This document shows positions 7,277 through 25,853 of a DNA stretch of 64,000 nucleotides, in pieces. The notes beneath the pieces are model-generated. The model was not told the origin of the DNA and made no database searches. It was given only the letters and a program-made list of their open reading frames with translations. The number at the start of each line of letters is the position of its first letter. The stretch's first letter is position 1. The stretch lies in assembly GCA_018824305.1 (NCBI GenBank), contig JAHJGM010000019.1:1-64000 (forward strand), written 5' to 3'. The translations under genes were made by a program, and so were the position numbers. The DNA is from a bacterium. GTDB taxonomy: Bacteria > Campylobacterota > Campylobacteria > Campylobacterales > Sulfurimonadaceae.

Positions 7277-7372
7277 ATCAGTGTTTTAAAAATTTTATAT
7301 CGAACCAGTGTCATTAGGATCAAAGTTTCAAAAAGTCACTTTGCCAAGAGATAGGTTTTTTAGGAGTATTTC

Positions 7373-9715: not shown

Positions 9716-9735
9716 ACAATCCCATATATCCATTT

Positions 9736-10545
9736 CTATTGCAAGGAGATCCCTTTTTTGTTACTCCATGCGATAAACGACCATATAAAAGGTTTGGGAT
9801 GAAGATTATTTTGTTCTATATGTGATCTATAGTATTCTCTCGCTTTTTGCTGCTGTTTATCATCGATCCCGCCTAAACTCCAGATCAGAGAGTTCACAAA
9901 CTCATCTTCATTAGAACTTTTTACGCTTCCTTTATTGGTAGTGATATAATCGATCGTCGGCAGATACCCGTTTTTATATAAAAGAATCGGAATATACCAG
10001 AAGTCCGGCTTAGTAATTATCTTTTTACCGATAAAATCCAGTATCTCCATATCAACAAAACTGCCACCCGCTTTATATGTGATATAACATGCTTTTGTTA
10101 CTTGCGCCGTCATTTTCAAAAGTGCTTTATCTATGTCTTGAACCTCAACACTTCTGGATGCGACGGCGATATCTGCCAAAGGAAGCTTACTCCAATCATC
10201 TTCCCAGCCTATATGATAGGTCTTTATATTTGTGATGCCCTCTTTTGCCGCGTATACTTCAAGTTCTTCAAGCATTTTGAGTGAAAAATCTATGGCTATG
10301 ACCTGTTTTACTTTTTTTGCAAGGGGGATAGCCAGTGTCCCCGGTCCGCAGCCTATATCAAGTACAATATCTTCCGCAGAAATATCCATGTGGGATATGA
10401 AATCATCGATATATGGTGATCTCTGCACCGAGACTGCCATCTCTTTTGATTTATTGTCCCAATCATCACTGCTCTTGCCCTTAAAATCCGTTAATGCTTT
10501 ATGCTCTTTATACATACTCGCAAAATCTATCTCTTGTAAAAACAT
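9736..10545 (-). CDS. Class I SAM-dependent methyltransferase
   Basis: Rossmann-fold methyltransferase of 269 residues. The SAM-binding motif I is VLDIGCGPGTLAIPLA (about residues 60-75), followed by the acidic strand end VIAIDFSLKMLEELE. It has a well-placed AGAGGAG site before ATG at 10545. It is the last gene of the 14-gene minus-strand run that starts with the globin gene, and a membrane-protein gene ends 16 bases upstream. The substrate is not visible. Because it sits with uptake and receptor genes it could modify a metal chelator or act in metal-cofactor metabolism, but that is only a guess from position. Confidence 0.8.
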   Translation of the reverse strand: MFLQEIDFASMYKEHKALTDFKGKSSDDWDNKSKEMAVSVQRSPYIDDFISHMDISAEDIVLDIGCGPGTLAIPLAKKVKQVIAIDFSLKMLEELEVYAAKEGITNIKTYHIGWEDDWSKLPLADIAVASRSVEVQDIDKALLKMTAQVTKACYITYKAGGSFVDMEILDFIGKKIITKPDFWYIPILLYKNGYLPTIDYITTNKGSVKSSNEDEFVNSLIWSLGGIDDKQQQKAREYYRSHIEQNNLHPKPFIWSFIAWSNKKGISLQ

Positions 10546-10561
10546 CGTTTCTCCTCTTTGT

Positions 10562-11038
10562 TTATTGGTTGTTTTTCATCGCTCGTATCTGATTTTCCAA
10601 TATCATCGCGACGATTTTCAGCGCATCGTACGAACTCCGCTGTGCGATACTTTCCAAGCTATCTTCCACACTGTCGACGATTATATTTTTTTCTTTTAGC
10701 AACAAGACCGCTGTATCTCGACTTATTTTCACACTATCGCATATCTCTTGAAAAGGCCTGCTTTTAAGAGTTTTAAGCAGTTTATGATTATCGCATTCCT
10801 GAATTGGCTCATGAAATCTCATGACTAGATCGCTTATCATCTTTTTGAGTTTATGCTTTCTCAGGTAGATATGTATCGGCAGGACAAGCAAAAAGATCAT
10901 CCCCATCGACTTATGGACAATGAGAGCATTTTGAGCATACTCGTCATCAAACATCATCAACGCACTTAGAGCTATCATCGTAATGAAGACGCTCATCAAA
11001 AAAATGATCGCCAGTTTTAAAAACATCTCTGCATTCAC
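10562..11038 (-). CDS. Small membrane protein, DUF4405-like N-terminus
   Basis: 158-residue protein I do not recognise with certainty. Two membrane helices are clear, about residues 6-30 and 40-60. The second carries H42 and H56 (HKSMGMIFLLVLPIH), a His-x13-His spacing of the kind that binds heme in b-type cytochromes and DUF4405-like proteins. The C-terminal 95 residues are soluble, with a helix-rich part that looks like a small HTH-like segment (RPFQEICDSVKISRDTAVLL). The start is GTG at 11038, overlapping the stop of the preceding gene as GTGA; ATG four codons later is an alternative. It is part of the ModE-linked run. Function unknown; heme binding is inference. Confidence 0.6.
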   Translation of the reverse strand: MNAEMFLKLAIIFLMSVFITMIALSALMMFDDEYAQNALIVHKSMGMIFLLVLPIHIYLRKHKLKKMISDLVMRFHEPIQECDNHKLLKTLKSRPFQEICDSVKISRDTAVLLLKEKNIIVDSVEDSLESIAQRSSYDALKIVAMILENQIRAMKNNQ

Positions 11039-11247
11039 TTAAACCGCCTTTGCTTACATGTAAAGCTTTCAACACTCCATCTTCTGTAAAGACAGTTATA
11101 ACAGCTACTTTGTTCAACGGATGTGACGAACTCGTCTTCATCTTTGTCAAGAGCGAACTCCTTACATGTAGATGCTGCTTCCATCGCTTTTACATAACTT
11201 TTTTTGCCATATTTGAAAATATGGTTCGCTCCCTCTGTATAAAACAT
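11035..11247 (-). CDS. Small four-cysteine protein, function unknown
   Basis: 70 residues, no signal peptide or membrane helix. Four cysteines, C28, C49, C52 and C64, lie in TCKEF, SCYNCLYRRW and FTCKQ, a pattern that could hold a metal ion or an iron-sulfur cluster. The start ATG at 11247 lies 8 bases after the stop of the TiaS-like gene, and the stop overlaps the next GTG start, so it is tightly fixed in the operon. Two TACATGTA palindromes fall inside this 213-base gene (near 11055 and 11162), both read as Thr-Cys-Lys. I do not recognise the family. Its position among uptake genes suggests metal handling (inference). Confidence 0.6.
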   Translation of the reverse strand: MFYTEGANHIFKYGKKSYVKAMEAASTCKEFALDKDEDEFVTSVEQSSCYNCLYRRWSVESFTCKQRRFK

Positions 11248-11255
11248 CCCTACCC

Positions 11256-11987
11256 TTAGTACTCTTGCAAATCTTCTCTTACCAAAGGTTTGTAAAAACC
11301 TCCGTACTTTTCTAGGAGCAAGACCGATTTATGCTCTTTATATACCCCTTTTAAATACTCTTTTACTATTACGGAGGTATTCTCATCCACAGGATCGCAA
11401 TTTATCAGTCTCACCTCATCAAACAGCCTTAACGATAACAGCTCCTTAACGCTTATGATCTCTTTATCCAAAGTGATCTTTCCTTTGATGCGTCCGTCAT
11501 TTCCGTACAACCTCAAAGCCACACCTGCGAGTGCGCCTATGACCCCGTTGCCTTCGTTTTTCCATCCCTTTAAAAAAAGGTTTTGCGATTTTGCGACAAC
11601 AAAAGCGTTTTCTTTGATCAGGACTCTTTTTTTTGCGCTCAGACCGTAGTTTATTAAAGCGTATCTGTCATCTATGTCTTTTTCGTAACCTATGCAGATA
11701 CCCGGTGAAGAGGAAGATGCACTTTTTTGAGACACATAATCGACTACGAACTCTTTGACTTCCTGAAGTTCCTGTTCATTCAGATGAGTCGTAAAACACA
11801 TCGAACTGTTATGCGACGTATAGTTGATCTCTTCATGCAGCAGCAGTTGATGACGGGTAACAGATGTCGTTTTTGTATAATAGCGCTCTATATGTTCCTT
11901 TATATCTTCGCATATCTCACCCGTTGAAGTGTAATATCCCAACTCGTCGGTATCATCTATGGCTATGTATGTTTTATATCTTTGCAT
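11256..11987 (-). CDS. TiaS-like protein (agmatinylcytidine synthetase catalytic-domain family)
   Basis: 243 residues beginning with IAIDDTDELGYYTSTGEI, which resembles the DDTD...TT nucleotide-binding signature of archaeal TiaS, the enzyme that attaches agmatine to tRNA-Ile2. Archaeal TiaS is about 420 residues and has extra OB-fold and zinc-ribbon domains; this protein appears to carry only the front part, with a glycine-rich segment (EGNGVIGALAGVALRLYGNDG) around residue 155. Bacteria normally use TilS at that tRNA position, so tRNA modification is unlikely. It is encoded 16 bases after the second TonB-dependent receptor and 8 bases before the four-Cys gene. A kinase-like or ligase-like role in the metal-uptake locus is possible. 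Family call is from motif recognition only. Confidence 0.55.
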   Translation of the reverse strand: MQRYKTYIAIDDTDELGYYTSTGEICEDIKEHIERYYTKTTSVTRHQLLLHEEINYTSHNSSMCFTTHLNEQELQEVKEFVVDYVSQKSASSSSPGICIGYEKDIDDRYALINYGLSAKKRVLIKENAFVVAKSQNLFLKGWKNEGNGVIGALAGVALRLYGNDGRIKGKITLDKEIISVKELLSLRLFDEVRLINCDPVDENTSVIVKEYLKGVYKEHKSVLLLEKYGGFYKPLVREDLQEY

Positions 11988-12003
11988 CTGTTACGCCTCT
12001 CAT

Positions 12004-13980
12004 CTAAAATTTATATGCTAGATTTGCAAAATACTCGCGTCCGGTCATAGGAAATGCCATGTCGTATCGTACAAGTTCATCTGTCAGATTTTTCACGCCG
12101 ATTTCAGCAGTAATAGCTTTTATGGTATAAATAGCTTTGATGTCAAATGTCGTAAAATCGGGATTTATGACATAGCTCTTATCCAGTTTTTGTTCGTACG
12201 CACCGCTTCGAAACTTCATATTTGCATATGCCGAGAAACCTGCTCCTATCTCTTTTTGGGCAAAAGCAAATAACTGATGTTTTGGTACGTCTGTCTGTTT
12301 GACACTCGTATCTTCCGTATTTTTTACCCAGATATAGGTGTAGTTCCCGCCGGCTTCCAAACCGTCGACTTTGTAGTTCAACTCAAACTCTCCGCCCACA
12401 TGATTAAATGTACCGACGTTTTGATTTTGTGTCAAAGAGGTGTTTTGATCCCATACGACACTCTGAATAGCATCTTCCACTCTTGTAAAAAAACCGTTCA
12501 CGCGACCTGTCAATGCATCATAGTTTTTTTGATAACTGAGCTCATAATGAGTTGAGATCTCGTTTTTAAGATCGGGATTAGGAACCGCCGTACCGAGTTT
12601 TCTTGAGTATCGGTCTTTCATAGAGGGCATATATGTTTTTCTTGAGACACTTGCTTTTACTTTTGAACTCGTATCTAAGGAGTATATAAGAGCGACTTGA
12701 GGACTCACTGAACTTTCAGTCTGTTTTGAGAGCATATCCTGATAAGCAGCAGTCGTATCATATATCTTATCAGCCGTTCTTTGGTCATAACTGATGCCGC
12801 CGAAAAGTTCAAGTTTTGACGTTATCTCGAATGTATCTTCAAGACCTAAAGAAAGGGTATGATCTTCATAGTTTTCAGTCAATGTTTTAGACTCGGTGAC
12901 TTTATCGAGGTCATAACCCTTATGCACATCTTTTTTAAAATTTGCCGCCGCTTTTATGAAATTATCGCCCAGTTGTATCCCGTATTCAAGACGCGCACCG
13001 GCACTATAGTCTTCATAACGGCTTTTAAAAGAGGATCCTTTGTTCATCGTTGTATAAGTGGCATCGTCATACGCAAACAAGGAGTTTGTAAACTTATCGT
13101 AATAAGCCAGTGCTTTTATATAACTCTCGTCAAAATTCTTTTGTCCCACCACAGAGACAGTCTCTTTATCCCATACAGGCCAGTCCCAATACTTTGTTTT
13201 GCTATATTCGGTGTCAGTCGCAGGAGGCTGTTGTTTCTTGCCTTTTTGATTTGCATAAGAGATCGCCACCTCACTTTGATCGTCTGCTATATATCCCGCC
13301 TTTAAACTTATCTTGCGGTCGTCTGCTTGTGAACGGAGGCTATCTCCCAGCGGCTGCGAAGCAGTAGCGGTATAATCGTTGCTGAGTCTGTAATGGTCTT
13401 GTTCTCGCACAACTGCTCCAAGCTGTGCATAATAGTGTCCTTGACGTGTTCCTATGTTCAGGGATTCTTCATGTCTGGCCATCTTGCCTATACTATCAAC
13501 GACTATGCCGGCTTTGATCTCACCCTCTAAAGCTTTGGTCGGCTTTTTAGAGACTATGTTCACGACACCACCCATCGTATTTGCACCGTAAACGACTGAC
13601 GAGTATCCTTTAGACACATCGATCTCACCTATATCGGAGGTTAAAAAACGCGCATAGTCAAAATTACCGTCATAGGGAACATACACAGGGATACCATCGA
13701 TAAACACCCCTATTCTATTCGCGTTAAATCCTCTTATGTAGAGTGTCGATTCGCCGCGGCCGCCTTGAACGTCTTGATTGACTCCGCTTATATTGTCCAA
13801 AGCCTCAGATACCGTTTCAGAGTTGTTCTGCGCGATAGTTTTAGAGTCTATACTCTGTTCAAAAAGATTTATCTCTTTTGTACTGTTGTTATTGTCTTGT
13901 ACATTGATCTGTCCAAGAGTGAAAGTATCCGCCAAAGCGGCACATGCCGCGAATGAAACCATTATCAAATGTTTTTTCAT
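12004..13980 (-). CDS. TonB-dependent outer membrane receptor (second of two)
   Basis: 658-residue receptor. A signal peptide (MKKHLIMVSFAACAALA) precedes a short TonB-box region (FTLGQINVQD). The plug domain covers about residues 35-150 with the usual motifs (SEALDNISGVN, YIRGFNANRIGVFIDGIP, YGANTMGGVVNIVSKK), followed by a 22-strand barrel ending in the terminal aromatic signature (YFANLAYKF). ATG at 13980 follows AAGGAG closely. It lies 11 bases after the luciferase-like gene in the ModE-linked operon. The ligand is unknown; with a FecCD-type ABC importer and ModE nearby, a molybdate, tungstate or metallophore substrate is more likely than plain iron-siderophore, though iron cannot be excluded. 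Confidence 0.88.
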   Translation of the reverse strand: MKKHLIMVSFAACAALADTFTLGQINVQDNNNSTKEINLFEQSIDSKTIAQNNSETVSEALDNISGVNQDVQGGRGESTLYIRGFNANRIGVFIDGIPVYVPYDGNFDYARFLTSDIGEIDVSKGYSSVVYGANTMGGVVNIVSKKPTKALEGEIKAGIVVDSIGKMARHEESLNIGTRQGHYYAQLGAVVREQDHYRLSNDYTATASQPLGDSLRSQADDRKISLKAGYIADDQSEVAISYANQKGKKQQPPATDTEYSKTKYWDWPVWDKETVSVVGQKNFDESYIKALAYYDKFTNSLFAYDDATYTTMNKGSSFKSRYEDYSAGARLEYGIQLGDNFIKAAANFKKDVHKGYDLDKVTESKTLTENYEDHTLSLGLEDTFEITSKLELFGGISYDQRTADKIYDTTAAYQDMLSKQTESSVSPQVALIYSLDTSSKVKASVSRKTYMPSMKDRYSRKLGTAVPNPDLKNEISTHYELSYQKNYDALTGRVNGFFTRVEDAIQSVVWDQNTSLTQNQNVGTFNHVGGEFELNYKVDGLEAGGNYTYIWVKNTEDTSVKQTDVPKHQLFAFAQKEIGAGFSAYANMKFRSGAYEQKLDKSYVINPDFTTFDIKAIYTIKAITAEIGVKNLTDELVRYDMAFPMTGREYFANLAYKF

Positions 13981-13991
13981 TTATTCTCCTT

Positions 13992-14999
13992 TTATATATG
14001 TGGTCTGATTTTTGAATTAAAAGTGTTGAGCATTATTTTGCTCTCTCCGAAATCCGCCGTGGCGGGTTTTAAGATAAGATGTACATTTTTAACCTCCCTG
14101 TCGATCTCTTTTATTTTTGCTATACAATCCTCTTGTGTCCCGATAATCCCGTTGAGTAAGAAATTCTCTCCCGCAAAAAACTCATATCTCTGTTCTAAAA
14201 GTTTTTTGTAGTTCTCCTCATCCCATACAGGCTTCATACTTTGTGCCGAAGCCGCCCTCATCGACTTTATAAAATGATCTATCGCCGGTTTTGCTATATC
14301 TACAGCCGCTTCTTTCGTGTCTGCCACACAAAAAACCCGTAGTATCACCGTTTCAGGGTAAGAACCTGCGATCTCTTTATAAAGCTTTTGCATCTCTACG
14401 CATTCTTGAACAGTTGCACCCTGAGAGAACATCAGCCCATAGCCGTGTCTTGCAGCAAACTCTACCGTTACTGGACTTGAAAAAGTCGCTATATAAAAAG
14501 GAATCTTTTCTCTCAGTGGTTTAGGGTGCAGATCCACTCCGTCAAAATCAATATATTTTCCATGATATAACGATAGATTCTGATTGACAAGCGCATCTAC
14601 CGCCTCCACGGATTCAAACATCATATCCCGCAATTCATCGCTGCTTTTTAAAAAGTGTTTGCTGTCTGCCGCAAATCCCCCCTTAGCAAACCCCGCATTG
14701 ATACGTCCGACGCTTAGATGTTCTAAAACGTTGATACTCTCAGAGAGTCTTATAGGGTTATAAAAAGGCGCCAAAAAACCTGCCGTTCCAAGTTTGATGC
14801 GGTCTGTTTTTGCAGCAGCGTAAGCCATTAGCAGCGATGGATCTGGGATCACGCTAAACCCGTTAAAATGATGCTCGCCAAACCATACCTCGTCAAATCC
14901 AAGCTGTTCGGCATAAACTACCTGCCTTATCTGTTCAAAGATCGCTTCATTCACGCTTGTATCATAATTCTCAACGAGACAAAATAGCCCTACTTTCAC
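13992..14999 (-). CDS. Luciferase-like flavin-dependent monooxygenase
   Basis: 335 residues of the bacterial luciferase-like (LLM) TIM-barrel family: N-terminal strand MKVGLFCLVE, the motif FDEVWFGEHHF at about residue 34, RIKLGTAGFLAPFYNP for the phosphate/flavin side and LSVGRINAGFAKGGFA near residue 110. Such enzymes use reduced FMN (or F420 in other groups) and oxygen. The start is GTG at 14999 and it overlaps the stop of a 38-codon gene as GTGA, so translation is coupled. Sitting inside a metal-uptake operon it may oxidise or break down an organic metal ligand, or help make one; nothing in the sequence decides this. Confidence 0.82.
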   Translation of the reverse strand: MKVGLFCLVENYDTSVNEAIFEQIRQVVYAEQLGFDEVWFGEHHFNGFSVIPDPSLLMAYAAAKTDRIKLGTAGFLAPFYNPIRLSESINVLEHLSVGRINAGFAKGGFAADSKHFLKSSDELRDMMFESVEAVDALVNQNLSLYHGKYIDFDGVDLHPKPLREKIPFYIATFSSPVTVEFAARHGYGLMFSQGATVQECVEMQKLYKEIAGSYPETVILRVFCVADTKEAAVDIAKPAIDHFIKSMRAASAQSMKPVWDEENYKKLLEQRYEFFAGENFLLNGIIGTQEDCIAKIKEIDREVKNVHLILKPATADFGESKIMLNTFNSKIRPHI

Positions 15000-15112
15000 A
15001 TCTGTTCCTTGATGAATTTGTCAAATGAGCTATCCATCAATCCAAGATTAAACGGATTGCATGATAACGCGATGATTGCAGATATACCGATTTTTTTATA
15101 GAGAGTTATCAT
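14996..15112 (-). CDS. Small 38-residue protein between binding protein and monooxygenase genes
   Basis: A short reading frame of 38 codons that fills the whole gap between its neighbours. It starts with ATG at 15112 inside the last codons of the binding-protein gene, six bases after a GGGAG site, and its TGA overlaps the GTG start of the monooxygenase gene. The product begins MITLYKKIGISAIIALSCN: two lysines, then a short hydrophobic stretch ending at Cys18, resembling a minimal signal or lipoprotein leader (ALSC is a poor but possible lipobox). The tail is mixed charged (MDSSFDKFIKEQM). Double overlap and the ribosome site argue that it is translated. Function unknown. Confidence 0.5.
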   Translation of the reverse strand: MITLYKKIGISAIIALSCNPFNLGLMDSSFDKFIKEQM

Positions 15113-16124
15113 CTTTATCTCCCATATTTTGAATATTATTCGACTCTTTTTGCGTGATGTCTACATGTAAGAAAAGGCGATTAAATCTTTGCAGTTCATC
15201 CTCAAATGAGTTTGGTAAAAGCTTCGGATAAAAAGTATGGATCAGCCATCTGATACCCATCAGACGCATAAATGAGGGCGGTCTTGTGATATAGTTAAAA
15301 GGTTGTGATGGAACAATATAGACTTTCCCCTCTTTCATGGCTCTTAAGTTTTTAAATCTGATATCGTTAAAAATATCTTTGAAAAAACTTTTTTCCATGA
15401 CTACGATCACATCGGGGTCAGAAAGTATGATTTTCTCCATACCGATCTTTTCCATACCGTAGTTTGAGCTCATCTTACATGTAAGGGCATTTTTTGCTCC
15501 GCTGTATTTAAACGGCTCAAGATGAAAAGAGCCTTCACATTCGCTAAAAAGCCCATCTAACCCCTCTGCAAAGTAGTAACGAACTTTTTTATGTTTTGAC
15601 AACTCACCCTGCAGACTCTCTATGAGCGAAAGAGTTTCCTTTGTATAGCTTATGAGTTCATCGGCTCTTGCTCTGTTACCCGTCAGTTTTGCATAAAGTT
15701 CAAACTGGCTTACAAGGTCATTGATCGAGTCGTTTCTCACAAGCAGCACGGGAATACTCAGCTTTTCAAACTTATGCAGGATGTTCTCAGCTCCGTTCAT
15801 CTTCCCCCACATGATGATGACATCAGGTTTAGATGCAGCAAGAAGCTCAAAGTTCGGTGTCTGTCCCTGTCCAAAGAAACCTCCTACGACAGGTTTATTT
15901 GCCGCCTCTTTTGCATAAAGTTTTTGCTCATCGTTAAAAGGCATGTTGAGTGCTGCGACAAGTGAGGGATCAAATGCCAAAACACTCATCGTAAGCGGCG
16001 GTGAAGCGGCGTATATCTTTGTCACATGATCGCTTACATGTACGCTTCGCCCGTAATCATCCACTATTACTTTCGCTTCTGCATGTAAAAGTAGTACCAT
16101 TAAAATAAAAACTATTTTCATCAT
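15096..16124 (-). CDS. FecB/BtuF-type substrate-binding protein (second of two)
   Basis: Periplasmic binding protein for a class II (BtuCD/FecCD-type) ABC importer. I place the start at ATG 16124, where it overlaps the ATPase stop as ATGA; an upstream in-frame start at 16151 would lie inside the ATPase gene and put extra residues before the signal peptide (MMKIVFILMVLLLHAEA). The body has the two lobes joined by a long helix and conserved stretches YAASPPLTMSVLAFDP, VGGFFGQGQTPNFELL and FNYITRPPSFMRLMGIRWL. It shares these with the other binding protein encoded at 20213-21265, including the His/Cys/Glu-bearing YYFAEGLDGLFSECEGSFHLE segment, so the two are paralogues. It contains three TACATGTA palindromes. 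Confidence 0.85.
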   Translation of the reverse strand: MMKIVFILMVLLLHAEAKVIVDDYGRSVHVSDHVTKIYAASPPLTMSVLAFDPSLVAALNMPFNDEQKLYAKEAANKPVVGGFFGQGQTPNFELLAASKPDVIIMWGKMNGAENILHKFEKLSIPVLLVRNDSINDLVSQFELYAKLTGNRARADELISYTKETLSLIESLQGELSKHKKVRYYFAEGLDGLFSECEGSFHLEPFKYSGAKNALTCKMSSNYGMEKIGMEKIILSDPDVIVVMEKSFFKDIFNDIRFKNLRAMKEGKVYIVPSQPFNYITRPPSFMRLMGIRWLIHTFYPKLLPNSFEDELQRFNRLFLHVDITQKESNNIQNMGDKDDNSL

Positions 16125-16906
16125 CTTTGACCTTTTAAAATTGGGATACACAACTGTTTGTCATCATAAGTTATGATCTTCGCGTCGATGTTGTAAATAT
16201 CCTGCATCATCGCATCTGTTATCACTTCGCTACTTGTCCCGCTTGCTATGATGTGACCCTCGTCCATCACTACGACTCTGCTTGATACCAAAATGGCATG
16301 GTCAGGATAATGGGTCGTTTTTAAAAACGTATATCCCATGGAACTAAGCTCGTTTATCAACTCCAAAAGCCGCATCTGATTTCCGTAGTCAAGCCCCGAG
16401 ACCGGTTCATCCATAATGAAAGTCTTTGCTTCTTGGGTCAGTGCGCGAGCAAGAAGCACCATCTGTTTTTGACCCCCGCTCAATTCTCCAAAAGCTCTGT
16501 TTGCAAGAGAGGCTATCCCTATCGTTTTGAGTGCCGTTCGAGCTATATCAAAATCATTTTTTGAGGGTGATGCAAAGAGTCCGAGTTTAAAGACTCTTCC
16601 CATCACGACCATATCCAGCACGCTGTAATTAAAGGGAACATTGTGATACTGCGGTATATAAGCGATATGCGATGCCATCTCTTTTTGGGAATATGTATGC
16701 AGATCACGACCTGCGATCTTTATCTCGCCTTTGCCTTTTATGAGTCCGAGGATAAGACGGATAAGCGTACTTTTTCCGCACCCGTTTGCACCGAGCAGAC
16801 TGACGACTTCACCCTTATGAAGTTCAAAATCCACATCTTTGAGGACATCTCTTTTAGGATAGGAAAAGTTGAGTCCTTTTACCGATACGATTGGTTCTAG
16901 TTCCAT
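16121..16906 (-). CDS. FecE/BtuD-type ABC transporter ATPase
   Basis: ATP-binding subunit of the importer, 261 residues. Walker A is GANGCGKST (about residues 39-47), the Q-loop lies in YIPQYHNVPF, the signature is LSGGQKQMVLLARAL and Walker B is TFIMDEPVSGLD, followed by the H-switch in KTTHYPDH. It overlaps the permease gene by 10 bases at its start and the binding-protein gene by 4 bases at its end. Homologues handle iron-siderophore, heme, cobalamin or, in the Haemophilus MolBCA case, molybdate and tungstate. The linked ModE site favours the last possibility here. Confidence 0.9.
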   Translation of the reverse strand: MELEPIVSVKGLNFSYPKRDVLKDVDFELHKGEVVSLLGANGCGKSTLIRLILGLIKGKGEIKIAGRDLHTYSQKEMASHIAYIPQYHNVPFNYSVLDMVVMGRVFKLGLFASPSKNDFDIARTALKTIGIASLANRAFGELSGGQKQMVLLARALTQEAKTFIMDEPVSGLDYGNQMRLLELINELSSMGYTFLKTTHYPDHAILVSSRVVVMDEGHIIASGTSSEVITDAMMQDIYNIDAKIITYDDKQLCIPILKGQR

Positions 16907-17925
16907 GCTGCCCTCGCATTTTTGAGTACGATCACAAATATAGGGATGCCGATAAGCGATGTGAGTATCCCGATAGGTATCTCGACACTAAGTGCGAGTC
17001 TTGAAACGGAATCTGCAAGAAGCAAAAAGATGGCTCCAAGAATAGCAGAAAGCGGGATTAGCACGCGATGAGAAGGTCCTATAGCCATACGGATAATATG
17101 CGGGATGATAAGTCCTATCCAACCGATGATGCCCGCCATAACGACAGAGAGCGAACTTGCAAGCGTCGCAAGTAAAATAGCGACTATACGAATAAGCTTC
17201 ACATTGATACCAAGCGCTTTTGCCTCCTCGTCTCCAAGACTTAAGATATCAAAATATTTACTCATGACGATCATCAAAGCGACACTGATAAGCATCGGAA
17301 CGCTCAAAAGCAGCACATTTGAAAGTTCGGTACTTGAGAGACTCCCCATCAGCCAGTAGACGATTGCGGGCAGAGTACTGTAGGGATCTGCCACATACTT
17401 GATGACTGAGAGAAGCGAGGTAAACAAAGACCCGCTGATAACACCGCCAAGCACAAGCATAACGGTAGAGCGGGAATTTGTCACCATAGTTGCGACGATG
17501 ACTGCAAACCCTACAGCTATAAAACCAAATAAAAAAGCCAGTATCTGCACCACAAACCACTGCTCGCTTATAAGCATCCCAAGAGCTGCTCCAAAAGAAG
17601 CTCCTGCCAATACTCCGAGAATACCGGGAGAGACTAGAGGATTGACAAACATCGCTTGAAATACAGCTCCCGACGTTGCAAGCGACGAACCGATAAGTAT
17701 CGCCAAGATCACCCGCGGCAGACGTATCTCCATGATAATATTGTCCAAAAGAGCAAAAGTCGCGATATCCCCGTTTGTACTGCCGAAGAACTTATAATCC
17801 AGATAGCTAATGAATGTATGAAAATCTATGGGGTACTGACCCCATAGAAGCGATAATATTGCAAAAAGTATAAGCAGGAGAGTCGAAACGACGATCCACT
17901 TGGTATGATTTGTAAGATTCATCAT
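16897..17925 (-). CDS. FecCD/BtuC-type ABC transporter permease
   Basis: 342-residue inner-membrane permease with about ten hydrophobic helices. Family landmarks are RLPRVILAILIGSSLATSGAVFQ near residue 73, VSPGILGVLAGASFGAALG near 95 and the cytoplasmic coupling region GINVKLIRIVAI. The late GIIGWIGLIIPHIIRM motif is typical of BtuC and FecCD. The first two codons are both ATG (17925 and 17922), and no strong ribosome site is visible, consistent with coupling to the receptor gene that ends 4 bases before. Only one permease gene is present, so it probably works as a homodimer served by both binding proteins. Confidence 0.9.
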   Translation of the reverse strand: MMNLTNHTKWIVVSTLLLILFAILSLLWGQYPIDFHTFISYLDYKFFGSTNGDIATFALLDNIIMEIRLPRVILAILIGSSLATSGAVFQAMFVNPLVSPGILGVLAGASFGAALGMLISEQWFVVQILAFLFGFIAVGFAVIVATMVTNSRSTVMLVLGGVISGSLFTSLLSVIKYVADPYSTLPAIVYWLMGSLSSTELSNVLLLSVPMLISVALMIVMSKYFDILSLGDEEAKALGINVKLIRIVAILLATLASSLSVVMAGIIGWIGLIIPHIIRMAIGPSHRVLIPLSAILGAIFLLLADSVSRLALSVEIPIGILTSLIGIPIFVIVLKNARAAWN

Positions 17926-17929
17926 ATCA

Positions 17930-20173
17930 CTAGTATTTTAGATTTATGCTGCCGTACAGACCAAATCTTGCACCTGTTTGGTAAGTGCTAGAAGTCGTCG
18001 TAGAAGCCAACACATTATCTGCTGTAATGATCGTAGAGATATACTTTTCATCCGTAAGGTTTGTTGCCGTGATTCTATAGAGTGTACTATTTGAACCAAA
18101 CAGTGAAGCGCCTTTATAAGAAGCATCCATATCTACTAACGCAAATGCATCCATTTTTTGGGTGTTTTCAACATCGCCGTATCTGCTTGACGTATATCTT
18201 ACACTCGGTGTAAATGTCCAGTTGTCAAAATAATAAGACACGGCACCTTTTGCCATAATCTCAGGCGCATCTGGTAGTTGATTCCCTTTTATATCCGTTG
18301 TCGAAGTCGATGATGATTGAAAATCCTGTGTAAAGGCAAATTTATTGTATGACAAACTCAAAAGAAATTCGAGGCTCTCATTAATAGGTCCGTTTGCCGC
18401 AAACTCTGCACCATATCCAAGTGCGTCACCGACATTAGCAGGATAGCTTACTCCATACTGCGAGTCATAGACATTTGCCTGTTTGTTTTTTACAAAAGAG
18501 ACGAACAGACTTGGATTTAAAGTCACGGCACCTACATTTGTCTTGACCCCAAGATCTATATTGTCCGATGTCTCAAGGTTCAGCTTATCCCATAGACTTT
18601 GCAAGGTCACGCCTTTACTTACAAAAGTGGATCTGTTTGACACATAGGTCGGGTAAAGATTCACATCAAAACCGTACGTTCTTGAGTAATCCAAATAGAG
18701 TGAACTCTCATTTGTCAGCTCATACCCTAAATATACAGAAGGGATGAATGTATGAAATGTTTTTGAACTTACACTTGCCCAAGTATCGTATGTAGATGTT
18801 GCAAGTGCCGTGTCATAATCTTGACTGGTGGCACTGCTTGTACCCGTGTAACTGTCGATCGCACCGATAGTAAATGTTTGATACTGCATACCCAAAGAGT
18901 AATGAAAACTGCTCATATCCCCGCTGAGTTCGACAAACGGAGACTCTATGGTATGATGGTCGCTTTTTGCAAGGATCCCATAACCGTCAAAGACTAGATT
19001 TCCGTTTACGACCTTATATTTTTTTTGATCCGTCGGCGGTCCGGGAGGCAGCTGTTTATGGTACCAATAGCCGATCTTTGCTTTCAACGCTTCATCAAAT
19101 GCATGTTCATACGATACGATGCCGCCGTAAAGATCGTGATCCATGTGCCAATCCATAACACGGTTTTTGGTCGAGTCTGAGTTGACTTTAGAGAACCAGT
19201 AATCCCCTACATCCTTTTTATAGTAGGGTTTAAATACGATCTTGTCATCGTTTGTCGGTTTATACTCAAAATTTCCAAACAATGCCGTCGTATCGAAACT
19301 CTGTTTGTTCCAATCATAGTAATTGACATCATTGCTTGCTGTCGGCTGCGTCATCGCATAATCTTGATTAAAATAGCTACCAAGATCACTCGCCTGTGCA
19401 TAGCTCAGACTTGCATAGTTATGGTGGTTATCGGAATTTCTCACCATGGTAAGATCTGCTTTGAAGTCGTCGGTCGGCTCATACGAGAGACCAAGCATCC
19501 CGTTGAGTCTTTTTAGCTCACCCTTGCCTTTTGATTTTTCATTCGATGTCGATGAAAAAGATCCGAAGATACTAAAATCGCCGATTTTCCCCGTATCTGT
19601 TCTTAAAAACGTCCTTTTGAAATTGTTGCTTCCAAAAGATTGGGAGACTGTAGCTCCCGCTTTTTTACTCGGTGCCATGATGTTCATATCTATTTTCCCT
19701 ATCAAACTGGAAAAACCGAGATTTTTATCAACGCTCAAATATCCTTTATAAAGATCTATCGAGGATACATTTTCCATATCTATCATCTCTTTGCCGCCGC
19801 CGGGATTACTCGATAAAGGGATACCCTCTATCATATAAACACCGCCGGGACCTGATTGAGATTTGCCGCGTATCCTGATAGGGTCATGATATGATGGTTC
19901 GTTCGAACCCGTCTCATCGACGGGCGTAAAATTTACGGAGGGCGAGAACTGGATGACCGTATAAGGGTTCATATTTGCCTGTGTACTCAAAGTAGAGATG
20001 CTTTTTTGTGTATAACTCTGAGTATTTTGTTTTTGTGAAAGATTGCCGTCTTTAAAGAACTCGTCACTATCGCTTTGAAGTGTCGAGTTTACGACGATCT
20101 TTTCAATACTGAGCGGACTAGCCGCAAGAGCCGTTGCGGCGACTAACGATATCATGTAGTATCCTAATTTCAT
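17930..20173 (-). CDS. TonB-dependent outer membrane receptor (first of two)
   Basis: 747-residue receptor with signal peptide (MKLGYYMISLVAATALAAS) and TonB-box-like IEKIVV right after it. The plug carries NMNPYTVIQFSPSVNF, RIRGKSQSGPGGVYMIEGIP and SSIDLYKGYLSVD; the barrel follows to a C-terminal aromatic residue (GSINLKY). It is unrelated in plug sequence to the second receptor gene at 12004-13980, so the two probably bind different ligands or forms. The ribosome site (AAAAGGGG) sits next to T7 and T8 runs (read as A on the coding strand) at 20185-20200. It lies between the first binding-protein gene and the permease gene. Confidence 0.87.
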   Translation of the reverse strand: MKLGYYMISLVAATALAASPLSIEKIVVNSTLQSDSDEFFKDGNLSQKQNTQSYTQKSISTLSTQANMNPYTVIQFSPSVNFTPVDETGSNEPSYHDPIRIRGKSQSGPGGVYMIEGIPLSSNPGGGKEMIDMENVSSIDLYKGYLSVDKNLGFSSLIGKIDMNIMAPSKKAGATVSQSFGSNNFKRTFLRTDTGKIGDFSIFGSFSSTSNEKSKGKGELKRLNGMLGLSYEPTDDFKADLTMVRNSDNHHNYASLSYAQASDLGSYFNQDYAMTQPTASNDVNYYDWNKQSFDTTALFGNFEYKPTNDDKIVFKPYYKKDVGDYWFSKVNSDSTKNRVMDWHMDHDLYGGIVSYEHAFDEALKAKIGYWYHKQLPPGPPTDQKKYKVVNGNLVFDGYGILAKSDHHTIESPFVELSGDMSSFHYSLGMQYQTFTIGAIDSYTGTSSATSQDYDTALATSTYDTWASVSSKTFHTFIPSVYLGYELTNESSLYLDYSRTYGFDVNLYPTYVSNRSTFVSKGVTLQSLWDKLNLETSDNIDLGVKTNVGAVTLNPSLFVSFVKNKQANVYDSQYGVSYPANVGDALGYGAEFAANGPINESLEFLLSLSYNKFAFTQDFQSSSTSTTDIKGNQLPDAPEIMAKGAVSYYFDNWTFTPSVRYTSSRYGDVENTQKMDAFALVDMDASYKGASLFGSNSTLYRITATNLTDEKYISTIITADNVLASTTTSSTYQTGARFGLYGSINLKY

Positions 20174-20212
20174 TTCATAACCCCTTTTTTTACTTTTTTT
20201 TATCCGTAAATA

Positions 20213-21265
20213 TTATTTTGAACAGCCCTTCCACTCAAGTGGAAGATGCTGCATTCCCATAATGTTCTCGACCTGTTTATCTGTAAGTTTCACATTCATA
20301 AAAAGTGCATAGAACTCTTTGATCTGTTTATTCATATCGATCTTGTACTCTTTTGGATGGAATATCTGTGCAAGCCACTCTACCCCCAATATCCGCATAA
20401 ATGAAGGCGGTCTGTCGATCCAATTAAACGGTGAATTCGGCACCAAATGAACGTTATGGTTTTTCACTGCACGCAGATTTTTCCAAAGAGGATTTATCGT
20501 AACCGCTTTATATGTAAAAGCACTTTGCACGATGATAACGTCAGGATCGTATGTCAAAAGTTTTTCAAAATTGATTTTTTCCAAGCCTAAAAGTCCGCTT
20601 TGCTGACATTTATGAACATTTTCCCCTCCTGCAAAGTTCAAAGCTTCCACATGAAATGACTCGTCACACTCGGTAGAAAGACCGTCAACGCCCTCCGCGT
20701 AGTAGTAACGCGTAGGCTTGAGGTCACTTACACCTTTGCTTACATGTAAGATTATTTTTGCTGCATAATCCGAAAGCTCTTTTCCACGCTCTGATTCATT
20801 CATAGCATCTGCTGCAAATGTGATAGCACGAGGCATCTCCTCGATCTTTCTAAAAGGTATCGTGATCGTCGGCAGTTTTGTCTTGTCGATAGCGTTTTTA
20901 ACAGTCGCAAAGACCATGTCGTCCTGCCAGACAAGTACCAAGTCGGGTTTATCTTTCAGAAGAGTCTCAAGATTGATATTTTTTCCTCCGCCATGAAAAG
21001 AACCAAGAACCGGCAAAGAGAGAAACTTCTCATGTAAAAGCTCTTTTGTCGCAAAATTGTTCGCATTGTTCGCTTTAAAATTCAAGCCTATCATCTTGTT
21101 AGGATCGATTGCATAGATAAGATAGTTCATTGGCGGTGACGAACCAAACACTCTATTGACAACATCGGGTACGATCACGTCGTTATTGTTCGTGTCTTGT
21201 ATGATCTTTGCGTCTAGTTGAAACGCTAAAACACTCATGATAAATAACCGAAATAAAAAATTCAT
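20213..21265 (-). CDS. FecB/BtuF-type substrate-binding protein (first of two)
   Basis: 350-residue periplasmic binding protein with signal peptide (MNFLFRLFIMSVLAFQLDA). Conserved family parts: VFGSSPPMNYLIYAIDP, VLGSFHGGGKNINLETLL, YYYAEGVDGLSTECDESFHVE and FNWIDRPPSFMRILGVEWL. It is a paralogue of the protein encoded at 15096-16124. The C-terminus ends HLPLEWKGCSK, with a late Cys absent from the paralogue. Its start is 11 bases after the tonB stop. With one permease for two binding proteins, the pair may widen the ligand range or pass ligand from different receptors. Confidence 0.85.
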   Translation of the reverse strand: MNFLFRLFIMSVLAFQLDAKIIQDTNNNDVIVPDVVNRVFGSSPPMNYLIYAIDPNKMIGLNFKANNANNFATKELLHEKFLSLPVLGSFHGGGKNINLETLLKDKPDLVLVWQDDMVFATVKNAIDKTKLPTITIPFRKIEEMPRAITFAADAMNESERGKELSDYAAKIILHVSKGVSDLKPTRYYYAEGVDGLSTECDESFHVEALNFAGGENVHKCQQSGLLGLEKINFEKLLTYDPDVIIVQSAFTYKAVTINPLWKNLRAVKNHNVHLVPNSPFNWIDRPPSFMRILGVEWLAQIFHPKEYKIDMNKQIKEFYALFMNVKLTDKQVENIMGMQHLPLEWKGCSK

Positions 21266-21276
21266 TTTAAATTTCC

Positions 21277-22032
21277 TTATGATTTTTTTAGTGAAAAAGC
21301 GATTGGAATCTTCAAATCAACCTTTTTTTCTAAATGAGGATATTCTCCATCCAGCGATGAAACTGTCTGTAGAGCTTTCTTGTCCAATGTAGAACTTCCA
21401 CTGCTCGAAACTATATGGATATCTTCAAGACACCCTTGCGTATTTAATGAAAATGAGACAACTACGACACCTTCAATACCTAGTTTCTTCGCAATGGCCG
21501 GATAGCATAAAGCTTTTTCTATCATCAATCGTATTTTTGCTAATTCTTCTTTACCTATATCATTGAAATGGGCTTTCTTGGTAGGTAACATTTTGTTTAT
21601 TGAAGGAGAAGTCACATGTGAAGAATCAGCTGTGACAGAATCCTCTTTAGCTTTCTGCTCTACATTGGGTCGTTGAGGCGTAAACGCCTCAGAAGATTTC
21701 ACTACTTTGCTAATAACGGGTGGAATCTTCTGAAGCGTTTTTACTTTTTCGACTTTTTTTACTCTTTTATTTTTTTGCTTTTTTTCTATTTTTGGAACAA
21801 CAGCTTTAAGAACCTCGTTTTTAGGCTCCTCTTGTACGTACTCGGCCAAAGAGACGACCACTGTTTTTTCCTCTGCATGTAAGGGCACAGGTTCTGCAAT
21901 ATCTGAGCGAAACACCAATAGCAAAACCGTTACATGTAAAGATAATGATAAAATGAATGACTTTAATTTTAAAAAATCCCCATTATTTAAATATATCTTA
22001 TTTGATATAACGATTCCACTAAAAAAACTCAT
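21277..22032 (-). CDS. tonB: TonB energy-transducing protein
   Basis: Couples inner-membrane proton motive force to the outer-membrane receptors. I choose ATG at 22032, one base after the globin stop (TAG-G-ATG); an upstream in-frame ATG at 22104 would run into the globin gene. The anchor helix is at about residues 24-42 (FILSLSLHVTVLLLVF), with the SxxxH pattern in SLSLH. A Lys/Pro/Glu-rich linker (VPKIEKKQKNKRVKKVEKVK) spans the periplasm, and the C-terminal domain has YPAIAKKLGIEGVVVVSFSL and SSGSSTLDKKALQ. ExbB and ExbD are not in the window, so this TonB relies on a pair encoded elsewhere. It is dedicated by position to the two receptors downstream. Confidence 0.87.
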   Translation of the reverse strand: MSFFSGIVISNKIYLNNGDFLKLKSFILSLSLHVTVLLLVFRSDIAEPVPLHAEEKTVVVSLAEYVQEEPKNEVLKAVVPKIEKKQKNKRVKKVEKVKTLQKIPPVISKVVKSSEAFTPQRPNVEQKAKEDSVTADSSHVTSPSINKMLPTKKAHFNDIGKEELAKIRLMIEKALCYPAIAKKLGIEGVVVVSFSLNTQGCLEDIHIVSSSGSSTLDKKALQTVSSLDGEYPHLEKKVDLKIPIAFSLKKS

Positions 22033-22033
22033 C

Positions 22034-22651
22034 CTAGTTACTCTCTTTTTTTTGAGCGATCGGCTCTTTAAACATATCCGTAAAAGGAAACCTTTGAATA
22101 TCAAGCACTGTCGTCCGTCTGTTGATCATTCGTATAGAGAGTGCTTCGATCCAGTTCCAAAACTCTTCTATACACTCTGCAGGCATCGAAAGCTCTTTGA
22201 TCGTCTTTTTGTACATCATCAGCCAGATCTCTCTTGCTTTTTCATCTATCGTCATATGAAAATGTCTCATTCTCAGAGCCGGATGCCCATATTGCGACGA
22301 GTACACCTTCCCTCCGCCAAGCGCTTCTACAAAAAAATCTCCCGTCTTTTTGGTAGCAAATTCAAAGACAGCGTCATCGCTTGAAAAGAAACTTCCGATA
22401 GAACTTTTTCGCAGCAGTCTATGATGATAAAACACCATATCTCTGATGTTTTTTTCACCCCACAATCTATAAAGTTTATTTGTAGGAAAAACAACTTCGG
22501 GAAAAACAAAATCTATCTTTGCCTCGGCAGTTCTAACAAACTCTAGCGCACCTTGAAACTCTGAAGTACCGCAAGTTCTAAAAGTCGGTATTTTTGAGTA
22601 GTCGATCGAGTGATTTATATTACCACTAACTTTTTGTTCTACATGTACCAT
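22034..22651 (-). CDS. Truncated hemoglobin-like protein
   Basis: Heme protein of the truncated (2-on-2) globin superfamily. ATG at 22651 is preceded by AAAGGAG at good spacing; a longer frame from 22705 lacks such a site. After an unusual N-terminal extension of about 55 residues, the globin core begins at NKLYRLWGEKNIRDMVFYHH, with SFFSSDD, and the heme-side motif YGHPALRMRHFHMTIDEKARE, whose RMRH His fits the proximal F8 ligand. It then ends in FWNWIEALSIRMINRR. It is the first gene after the ModE operator. Possible roles are oxygen or NO binding near molybdenum enzymes or the flavin monooxygenase (inference). Confidence 0.78.
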   Translation of the reverse strand: MVHVEQKVSGNINHSIDYSKIPTFRTCGTSEFQGALEFVRTAEAKIDFVFPEVVFPTNKLYRLWGEKNIRDMVFYHHRLLRKSSIGSFFSSDDAVFEFATKKTGDFFVEALGGGKVYSSQYGHPALRMRHFHMTIDEKAREIWLMMYKKTIKELSMPAECIEEFWNWIEALSIRMINRRTTVLDIQRFPFTDMFKEPIAQKKESN

Positions 22652-22774
22652 ACAAACTCCTTTATATCTAAAATGATATAATGATTTACAAAACAATAGA
22701 TGCAAATGATATTCTCATAAAAGTTAAACAATTTTGTACTGTTTCAACAAATATCCAATGAGAAGTTACATTTT

Positions 22775-22798
22775 CGTTATGTTTTGTAATATATAACG
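22775..22798. promoter_or_regulatory. ModE-type operator
   Basis: Imperfect-spacer palindrome with perfect outer arms: CGTTAT, 12 bases, ATAACG; one flanking base on each side also pairs (TTCGTTAT and ATAACGAA, 22773-22800). The right side reads TATATAACG. This agrees with the Escherichia coli modA operator architecture (CGTTATAT...ATAACG, 24 bases), as I recall it. It lies about 124 bases upstream of the globin start and 40 bases after the modE stop, so it most likely controls the 14-gene minus-strand run. Binding has to be shown. Confidence 0.72.
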
Positions 22799-22837
22799 AA
22801 TTATATACAAAAAAATCTTAATTTTTATTTTTGTATC

Positions 22838-23617
22838 CTATAGACCGACGATAATATTGTTATAGGCTATAGACGCGTACGCTTTTTGACCGACATTAAA
22901 AGAATCCATCTCCTCTTTATTCAGCAGAGTTATCAGCAATGTCTTGTCATTGATGCGAAGTGCAAGCTCAGAATTGAGCTTCGTGCTTTGGATGTATTCG
23001 ATCGTTCCCTCTAAAATATTTAAATTCTCGATATTATCAGGCTTACTTGCCAAAATTTTTATATCACTGGATTTTATGATCGCATATATTTCACTGCCTA
23101 CATGCAGGTTCATATTGTTGGCTGATTTGGCCGTAATAGTAGAGAAGAGCTCAGTACCGCCTGAGAGGGTTATCGTGATGATCGAACTTAGTTCATCGGA
23201 GCTGATCTTTGATATGACTGATGGGATCTGATTTCTTGCACTGGTCGTAAGGAAAGTTCTATTGAGAATTTTTGCCAATAGTTCAGGACTATCCCCTGCT
23301 TCACTGAATCTGTCTATAAACTGGCGGTGAAGTTCATATAATCTGTCATACGTTTTTATTAACTCATGAGCATACGGGGTGAGTATAGTTCCACCTCCAC
23401 CCTTTCCTCCGACTTTTCTTTGTATGATCGGCTCATCTGCAAGTTCATTCATGCTGTTGATGCGTTCCCATGCTGCCTTATAGCTCATCTTCATCTCTTT
23501 TGCCGCAGCATTGATAGAACCAGTTTTTTCAATGAGATTTAGAAGCTCTATCCTTCCAGAACCTAAAAAACTGTGCCCATCTTTCGTAAGCCAGAAACGA
23601 CCGTCTATTTTCATCAT
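22838..23617 (-). CDS. modE: ModE-family molybdate-responsive transcriptional regulator
   Basis: 259 residues, the full ModE length. The N-terminal winged helix-turn-helix (residues 15-80) has GSINAAAKEMKMSYKAAWERI and the wing GGKGGGGTILTPYA. Two C-terminal TOBE/Mop domains follow at about 125-190 and 195-258 (ARNQIPSVISKISSDELSSI is typical of the first), which bind molybdate or tungstate in E. coli ModE. Start is one of two adjacent ATGs at 23617/23614 after AAAGGTAG. A ModE-type operator lies just downstream, ahead of the uptake operon, giving a local regulator-target pair. Confidence 0.9.
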   Translation of the reverse strand: MMKIDGRFWLTKDGHSFLGSGRIELLNLIEKTGSINAAAKEMKMSYKAAWERINSMNELADEPIIQRKVGGKGGGGTILTPYAHELIKTYDRLYELHRQFIDRFSEAGDSPELLAKILNRTFLTTSARNQIPSVISKISSDELSSIITITLSGGTELFSTITAKSANNMNLHVGSEIYAIIKSSDIKILASKPDNIENLNILEGTIEYIQSTKLNSELALRINDKTLLITLLNKEEMDSFNVGQKAYASIAYNNIIVGL

Positions 23618-23740
23618 AAACTACCTTTATCACTAAAACTATAGATTTAAAATCATATACTAATTATTACATTTTACAATTTTTTACATAAATTTGAAGA
23701 GAAAAAAAGCGCTAAAATAGGATTTTAAGAGGAGAAACTC

Positions 23741-23766
23741 AGACAGAAAAAGGGAGTTTTCTGTCT
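23741..23766 (-). terminator. Hairpin downstream of serA
   Basis: Perfect 10-base inverted repeat (AGACAGAAAA and TTTTCTGTCT) with a six-base loop, 17 bases beyond the serA stop codon on the minus strand. There is no long T run after it on that strand, so strength is uncertain, but its place between serA and the divergently regulated modE region fits transcription termination. Confidence 0.6.
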
Positions 23767-23783
23767 AAAATATTGAAAGATTA

Positions 23784-25370
23784 TTAGATTTTTGCGTAAC
23801 TCACACTGATACAAGCATCAAGATTAGCAAGCTCTTTTAACACTGTATCATTTACCGGACTATCTACGATAATCACAGCTAATGCTTCAGATTTAGAGTT
23901 TCTGCCAAGACGGAAATCCGCAATGTTCACTTTATGGCTCGCGAGTATTGTACCGACATTGCCTATGACTCCGGGAACATCAGTATTTTTAAAGAATATC
24001 ATATTGCCTTTTAAAGCTACATCAACGCTAAATCCATCTATCTCGACCATACGTTGAATACTATCATCAAACATAGTCGCTCTGATAGTCGTCGTCTGTT
24101 TATCAGTCGTAAGTTTCACAGTGATAAGGTTTTTATACACAGATGAATCAGCTAATGCTTCAGTCTCGACTTTAATCCCTTTTTCTTTAGCAATGAAATC
24201 AGCATTTACATAGTTGATCGTATCTCCGCTGTTTTCAGCCAATGCACCGACCGTGACAAATGTTGAAAGAGAATCGACAAACTCAGCTATTGCACCCTGC
24301 CCGCTTACTTTAATAGAAACAACAGGAGCACGATTTTTCTGAGAAGCTAAGAACCCCAGTTTTTGTCCCATCTCCATATACGGTTTTACAAATGCAGGTA
24401 TTTTGCTTTCATCTATCGGAAGATTCAATGCATTTGGATATGCCATACCTTTTGCTGCCTGAATTGCTTGTTCAGCAGCTTGTACACCGATGTTATACTG
24501 AGACTCATACGTATTTGCACCTAAGTGAGGAGACACGATAATATTATCTAAGTCAAGTAAAGGATTACTTGTAGCAGGTTCTTTGACAAAAACATCTATA
24601 CCTGCAAAACGGATCTTACCGGATTTTAGGCCGTTATAAAGAGCTTCTTCATTATAAAGACCGCCGCGCGCACAGTTGACCAACACTACGCCGTCTTTCA
24701 TCTTAGCGATCTCTTTTTCGTTGATCATGTCTACAGTCTCACTGTTTTTTGGCGTATGGATCGTAATAACGTCACAAGCCAAAATATCATCAAAGTTTTC
24801 AGTATACACCATATCTAGATCAGTTACTTTAGACGGGTGGATATATGGATCGTATGCAACAATATCCATCTCGAAAGCTTTTGCACGTTTTGCAACGCGT
24901 GAACCGATATTACCAAAACCGATAACACCCAGTTTTTTGCCTTTTAGTTCATAACCGTACCATTTTTCACGTTTCCAGATACGTTGATTTTTAAGATGAT
25001 CGTGAGAATACGGGAACATTCTCATACATGAAAGCATATGTGCCATAGTAAGCTCAACTGCTGCTATGGTATTAGCTGTAGGGACGTTCATAACGATGAT
25101 ACCCTCTTTTGAACATCCAGGAATATCGACATTATCAACACCTACACCGGCACGTACGATAGCCTTCATATTTTTAGCGTGTGCAATGAACTTCTCATCC
25201 ACATCAGTAGAACTGCGTGTAATTGCGATATCAGCATCTACTAACATATTTAAAAGTTCTGTTTTATCGACATCTGCAGCAAAAATATAGTTTATATTTT
25301 CATCATCTTGAAGCATTTTAAGTCCAGCTTCATGAATATGATCACAAACGATTACTGTACTTTTTTCCAT
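23784..25370 (-). CDS. serA: D-3-phosphoglycerate dehydrogenase
   Basis: First step of serine biosynthesis, oxidising 3-phosphoglycerate with NAD. 528 residues, the long form with an extra substrate-binding domain and C-terminal ACT domain. NAD motif GVIGFGNIGSRVAKRA is near residue 146; catalytic Arg in NCARGG, Glu in GIDVFVKEPA and His in VSPHLGANTYESQ are present. The C-terminal ACT domain (about 455-528) carries NTDVPGVIGNVGTILASH and likely mediates serine feedback. The start overlaps the upstream gene by 19 bases. The serA-hypothetical-rpsA order matches Campylobacter. Confidence 0.95.
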   Translation of the reverse strand: MEKSTVIVCDHIHEAGLKMLQDDENINYIFAADVDKTELLNMLVDADIAITRSSTDVDEKFIAHAKNMKAIVRAGVGVDNVDIPGCSKEGIIVMNVPTANTIAAVELTMAHMLSCMRMFPYSHDHLKNQRIWKREKWYGYELKGKKLGVIGFGNIGSRVAKRAKAFEMDIVAYDPYIHPSKVTDLDMVYTENFDDILACDVITIHTPKNSETVDMINEKEIAKMKDGVVLVNCARGGLYNEEALYNGLKSGKIRFAGIDVFVKEPATSNPLLDLDNIIVSPHLGANTYESQYNIGVQAAEQAIQAAKGMAYPNALNLPIDESKIPAFVKPYMEMGQKLGFLASQKNRAPVVSIKVSGQGAIAEFVDSLSTFVTVGALAENSGDTINYVNADFIAKEKGIKVETEALADSSVYKNLITVKLTTDKQTTTIRATMFDDSIQRMVEIDGFSVDVALKGNMIFFKNTDVPGVIGNVGTILASHKVNIADFRLGRNSKSEALAVIIVDSPVNDTVLKELANLDACISVSYAKI

Positions 25371-25852: not shown

Positions 25853-25853
25853 T

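Follow-up and report, generated by a model that had tools for sequence, protein, structure and literature searches.

The window analysed here, a 64,000-nucleotide stretch of a Sulfurimonadaceae genome (contig JAHJGM010000019.1), contains a minus-strand operon at positions 9736-22651, downstream of modE and a perfect ModE operator (Table 1). Thirteen genes are clear, and the count rises to 14 if either a 38-codon open reading frame or modE is included. In transcript order, the first half encodes a truncated globin, TonB, binding protein 1, TonB-dependent receptor 1, a FecCD permease, an ATPase and binding protein 2; these are followed by a luciferase-like monooxygenase, receptor 2, a TiaS-like protein, a four-Cys protein, a His-x13-His membrane protein and a methyltransferase. 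Neighbouring genes overlap or are separated by at most 39 bases, with the sole exception of the interval separating binding protein 2 from the monooxygenase, which is about 96 bases long and is occupied by the 38-codon frame. No terminator-like site was found just 3' of the methyltransferase gene. The first-pass annotation had described a 14-gene operon, and its content, order and strand are retained, with the gene number amended to 13 clear genes and the one wider gap added.

Table 1. Features of the operon and of its upstream region. Positions refer to the window.
Feature	Position	Strand	Basis
modE, ModE_repress and TOBE/Mop (molybdate-binding) domains	22838..23617	-	TIGR00637, TIGR00638, Pfam TOBE
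ModE-type operator CGTTATATATTACAAAACATAACG	22775..22798		Perfect 6-12-6 inverted repeat, CGTTAT-N12-ATAACG, between modE and globin gene
Truncated (bacterial-type) globin	22034..22651	-	PF01152 54 bits, cut-off 21
TonB, start codon uncertain	21277..22032	-	PF03544 64 bits, cut-off 24.6
Periplasmic binding protein 1	20213..21265	-	PF01497; PDB sequence matches 4pag 2e-76, MolA 3psa 1e-12
TonB-dependent receptor 1	17930..20173	-	PF00593 and PF07715 above cut-off
FecCD-type permease, MolB-like	16897..17925	-	PF01032; nearest solved structure HI1471 MolB
ABC transporter ATPase	16121..16906	-	PF00005
Periplasmic binding protein 2	15096..16151	-	PF01497; PDB matches 4pag 6e-57, MolA 2e-12
38-codon open reading frame, putative gene	14999..15115	-	Read from sequence; without family match
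Luciferase-like monooxygenase	13992..14999	-	PF00296 178 bits
TonB-dependent receptor 2, hemin-receptor-like	12004..13980	-	PF00593, PF07715; TIGR01785 below cut-off
TiaS-like protein (core)	11256..11987	-	Weak TIGR03280 and TiaS profile matches; invariant DDTD; family member with TiaS-type fold
Four-Cys protein (core)	11035..11247	-	Without known family; four invariant cysteines; TiaS-like fusions
Small membrane protein, conserved His-x13-His	10562..11038	-	Both His invariant in alignment; cytochrome b561 match weak, under cut-off
Class I methyltransferase	9736..10545	-	PF13649 43 bits, cut-off 27

The operator is the sole perfect ModE-type site found by pattern scan in the 2.4 Mb genome, and its half-sites and spacing are presumably those of the E. 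coli modA operator. When up to one mismatch is allowed, two sites occur in the window against 0.27 expected, a number reached in 5 of 100 shuffles, while the genome-wide count of five does not exceed the six obtained for a reversed control pattern, so that only the perfect site is significant by itself. The modE product scores 100.6 bits against TIGR00637 (cut-off 98.5) and 74.4 bits against TIGR00638 (cut-off 55). The presence of modE and a ModE-type operator ahead of the operon, as noted earlier, is borne out by both the repeat and the domains. A second box, with one mismatch, is located on another contig, where it lies upstream of a gene for an outer-membrane porin, itself followed by modA, and ModE therefore probably also controls this porin-mod operon. 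A scan of window positions 7000-26000 for the Moco/Tuco riboswitch (RF01055, E up to 0.5) gave no match. On these sequence features, the operon is predicted to be controlled by ModE, without a Moco/Tuco riboswitch.

Among solved structures, the permease is closest to HI1471 MolB (2nq2, 1e-60), followed by FhuB (1e-50) and BtuC (6e-39). For binding proteins 1 and 2, MolA ranks third (1e-12 and 2e-12, respectively), below two structural-genomics proteins of unstated ligand. MolA binds both molybdate and tungstate (PMC4031551), and its match to the binding proteins, together with the position of the permease nearest MolB, would favour plain high-affinity import of molybdate or tungstate (or thiomolybdate or thiotungstate) through receptors and a MolBC-A-like importer; the TiaS-like and four-Cys proteins would then act in metal insertion or storage as opposed to ligand chemistry. 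We consider this improbable, as a small soluble anion would not usually call for TonB receptors or surface-anchored proteins, the same genome has ModABC, and the link between the enzyme pair and the transporter holds across phyla. Other parts of the operon could be read in favour of a different cargo. Receptor 2 is hemin-receptor-like by profile, its score against the heme/hemoglobin receptor profile TIGR01785 (140 bits) being under the cut-off of 316.85, and with the globin, the His-x13-His membrane protein and a permease of the FecCD family it would suit uptake of heme, a tetrapyrrole or an iron-siderophore by a system that adjoins modE by chance.

TiaS, the archaeal tRNA-Ile2 agmatidine synthetase, provides the top Foldseek matches for a TiaS-like family member from another locus (L118; E 2e-9), extending over the N-terminal fold of about 160 residues. 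The DDTD motif is shared with TiaS and is invariant in the TiaS-like family. The likeness is confined to this part: the window protein scores 31 bits against the full-length TiaS profile (cut-off 600), with residues 3-154 of 422 matched, and carries a C-terminal part of its own. The TiaS-like protein further differs from TiaS in being bacterial and transport-linked, in having a four-Cys partner, and in a motif that reads YTSHNSS as opposed to YKTRGNG in the Pyrococcus TiaS chain. There is also a weak match (E 1e-9) to the C-terminal half of methanogenesis marker protein 11 (TIGR03280), at 37.6 bits against a cut-off of 255.8. In the four-Cys family, the four cysteines as well as D, E, R and W residues are invariant across all 58 relatives, and at five loci the TiaS-like and four-Cys proteins are fused. 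Given this conservation and the fusions, the two proteins very probably work as a pair. A search of the PDB with the four-Cys family profile yielded no credible match, and the four-Cys part of the predicted model is of low confidence, so nothing is drawn from its shape.

A profile scan identified at least 232 places in GTDB genomes that encode a TiaS-like protein. The protein is found in 21 of 298 Campylobacterota genomes, fragments counted, and the nearest relatives of the window copy are from Sulfurimonadaceae. Comparison of the best 80 of the 232 places, with genes called by simple ORF choice, covered Campylobacterota, Bacillota, Geobacter and Desulfuromonas relatives, Ferrimonas, Marinobacter, Glaesserella and others. 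Cultured carriers include Sporomusa ovata, Clostridium magnum, Syntrophomonas wolfei, Malaciobacter halophilus and Ferrimonas. The neighbourhoods do not support the 14-gene set as a unit, as first proposed; what is conserved is a core of FecCD permease, ATPase, binding protein, TiaS-like protein and four-Cys protein. Outside this core, the globin, monooxygenase, methyltransferase and small membrane protein, found for the most part in Campylobacterota, are lineage-specific additions, as is the second receptor. An ECF-type importer with a PF09819-like S component stands in for the FecCD type in Sporomusa, Clostridium magnum, Desulfosporosinus and others, and in monoderms the first genes encode surface proteins with Big_5, SLH or LPXTG parts, in the position of the diderm receptors.

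Rfam riboswitch scans of 48 loci outside Campylobacterota, in addition to the window, placed a Moco/Tuco riboswitch in 25 of the 48. At 21 of the 48 loci it lies directly upstream of the TiaS-like operon on the same strand, above the gathering score; 20 of these 21 are P3-less, as classed by spacing or, for a later batch, by length alone. In printed alignments the P3 hairpin is missing in L060 and L067, including the tupA-linked RNA of L067, and is kept in L121. P3-less Moco/Tuco RNAs are assigned to the tungsten cofactor from genomic context in passages of Regulski 2008 (PMC2408646), which also mention an S. wolfei operon where three RNAs of this kind accompany genes without assigned function. 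One of our TiaS-like loci (L071) belongs to an S. wolfei strain and may be the three-RNA operon of those passages.

Of the 11 Campylobacterota loci from outside Campylobacter, seven have ModE boxes (nine boxes against about 0.2 expected), all of those checked being intergenic, and L045 and L046 share the modE-box-globin order of the window. Co-occurrence with modE or ModE sites, which the first-pass annotation had proposed as a check, is thus seen in most Campylobacterota relatives, Campylobacter being the exception, where the scanned loci have no recognisable box. Several Campylobacter loci also contain truncated TiaS-like genes and no transporter, and we therefore conclude that the system is being lost there or is under different control. 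Genes for modA, modB, modD, tupA, moeA, moaC or modE flank 13 of the 80 loci. Only one cobalamin riboswitch was seen (L120), upstream of an apparent cobalamin adenosyltransferase gene and separated by over 4 kb from the TiaS-like gene that follows; none was found on a core operon among the 48 loci scanned outside Campylobacterota. Heme or B12 uptake was rejected on this basis.

The core is thus found in groups as far apart as Campylobacterota and Clostridia, under two unrelated switches that sense molybdenum or tungsten (Mo/W). Together with the mod and tup neighbours, and with the attribution of the sole cobalamin riboswitch to another gene, this makes heme, tetrapyrrole or siderophore uptake beside modE by chance very improbable. 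The original assignment to molybdenum or tungsten is strongly supported by the riboswitches, ModE boxes and modABC, modD, tupA and moeA neighbours at related loci, as independent evidence from other phyla, and by the permease being nearest to MolB among solved structures.

MoaC was found in 48 of 50 carriers, both exceptions being draft MAGs, and AOR-type tungsten enzymes in 40 of 50, each being a count without matched background. The window genome encodes MoaC, five molybdopterin-oxidoreductase matches and ModABC, and a TupA query gave no match in it. ModA is present in all 20 Campylobacterota tested, including carriers of intact and of decayed copies. Because the window genome has separate mod genes, the operon would constitute a second, accessory Mo/W route in this organism. 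ModE and modABC without a TupA match would fit either molybdenum or tungsten in the window organism; for Bacillota, tungsten is indicated by the P3-less RNAs together with the tupA neighbours and AOR enzymes.

These data also bear on salvage, resembling B12 uptake, of the pterin cofactor itself (Moco/Tuco, molybdopterin or something derived from its breakdown), with the TiaS-like/four-Cys pair repairing or reactivating the pterin. Such salvage would agree with the cofactor-sensing riboswitches on the operons, with the replacement of the importer in some lineages by an ECF transporter, the kind that commonly carries vitamins, and with the action of TiaS itself on a nitrogen heterocycle. It is nevertheless unlikely, given that synthesis is not replaced in the carriers that keep MoaC, that the window system is under ModE, a sensor of the oxyanion, and that free Moco is unstable. 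Cofactor auxotrophy, with salvage instead of synthesis, is unsupported, since among the 50 carriers MoaC is missing only from the two draft MAGs.

That the system serves Mo/W acquisition is, in our view, highly probable, and we lean with modest confidence towards a fuller statement comprising surface capture, entry of Mo/W into the cell, probably bound in an organic complex, and ATP-dependent processing in the cytoplasm by the TiaS-like and four-Cys proteins. ModE would probably repress the operon when Mo/W is plentiful, as Tuco/Moco riboswitches would in other phyla, a direction of regulation that we infer along with the order of the steps. The receptors and TonB would take a Mo or W complex from outside, and the binding proteins and MolBC-like class II importer would bring it into the cytoplasm, where the TiaS-like ATP-dependent enzyme and its four-Cys partner may modify the ligand or free the metal for Moco/Tuco synthesis. 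The window lineage may additionally use the monooxygenase, methyltransferase and redox/heme proteins for this. This scheme draws on the computed gene content, linkage across phyla, operator and riboswitch placement, MolB relation, TiaS-type fold and TiaS/four-Cys fusions. A complexed cargo is argued from the TonB receptors, the Big_5/SLH surface proteins of monoderms and the separate oxyanion transporters in the same genomes. Counting against it, MolBC-A transports free molybdate (PMC4031551), and the cargo could thus be the oxyanion. No metallophore synthesis genes were seen among the families of the operon. Chelate uptake and processing, as put forward at the outset, remains the best fit, with the ligand, the substrate and the chemistry of the TiaS-like protein being what we infer. 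More tentatively, at a little short of even, several phyla may share a pathway for an organic W/Mo compound, either a metallophore complex or a pterin cofactor, in which a TiaS-derived ATP-dependent enzyme and a four-thiolate partner open or remake the metal-ligand complex after import.

Of the known systems, MolBC-A (HI1470-1472), the class II molybdate/tungstate importer of Haemophilus influenzae, resembles the present operon in its permease (MolB being the nearest solved structure), in binding proteins that may be related (MolA ranking third) and in Mo/W-linked control, whereas the present operon also encodes TonB with a pair of receptors, has two binding proteins, and includes the TiaS-like and four-Cys proteins. 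The oxyanion importers ModABC, TupABC and WtpABC also supply Mo/W under ModE or riboswitch control and are sometimes neighbours of the present system; however, they belong to another importer class and have neither receptor nor dedicated enzymes. TonB-dependent systems for siderophores, heme and B12 (Fhu, Fec, Btu, Hmu) have the same receptor, TonB, binding protein, FecCD permease and ATPase, but not the Mo/W switches and importer-linked enzyme pair seen here across phyla. Genes of unknown function under Moco RNAs are likewise a feature of the riboswitch regulons in the passages of PMC2408646, and TonB-type channel genes near molybdopterin riboswitches were already noted in the Pelobacter carbinolicus genome paper (PMC3543383). 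The relevant passages of these two papers contain no description of the TiaS/four-Cys core or its unity across phyla, and no description of the core was found in open-licence papers on Mo/W uptake linked to TonB, on molybdophores, on methanogenesis marker 11 or on Moco riboswitch regulons.

The system thus looks widespread in bacteria yet undescribed. If our reading is true, the Mo/W nutrition of many anaerobes would not depend only on oxyanion uptake by ModABC, TupABC or WtpABC, but would include a second, surface-capturing route with its own enzyme pair, by which Mo/W enters as a complex. A TiaS-related enzyme family would also gain a role, and some of the unknown genes under Moco/Tuco riboswitches would be explained.

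In the TiaS-like tree, the copy from Glaesserella australis (Pasteurellaceae; locus L054) clusters with a Campylobacter copy with a support of 100/99, and this grouping suggests that the gene was transferred. A QRPTase-family protein resembling ModD recurs as a neighbour of the system, at L054 as well as at loci L022, L023, L024, L045 and L046.

Among Syntrophomonas relatives the TiaS-like gene occurs as a tandem trio, and neither the DDTD nor the YTSHNSS motif survives in the middle copy. The Campylobacter-like loci L034-L041 (genus g8) are copies of the system in decay, with the gene shortened to about 107-160 residues and the importer gone. A stop interrupts the TiaS-like gene of L032, and the receptor of L027 is spread over three ORFs.

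Two further genes were found to accompany the TiaS-like gene: that for the cluster 59 small protein, in Geobacter and Desulfotomaculum relatives, and, chiefly in operons with an ECF transporter, that for an iron-sulfur oxidoreductase that possibly contributes a redox step.

On contig C15 (L123), modA is preceded by a porin gene with a ModE-like box upstream of it, and the two genes could form a ModE-controlled porin-mod operon.

Coordinates of features at the compared loci
Feature	Position	Remarks
ModE-like box, one mismatch	C15:19314-19337 (L123)	window organism's own genome; upstream of outer-membrane porin gene
Three tandem TiaS-like genes	L103:9995-12310; L109:6181-8452	Syntrophomonas relatives
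Cluster 59, small conserved protein, about 70-110 residues	L094:293-541; L098:46-381; L104:6739-7005	adjoins TiaS-like gene
Membrane-linked iron-sulfur oxidoreductase	L084:10991-13054; L089:6690-8705; L121:2732-4837	CCG and Fer4 domains
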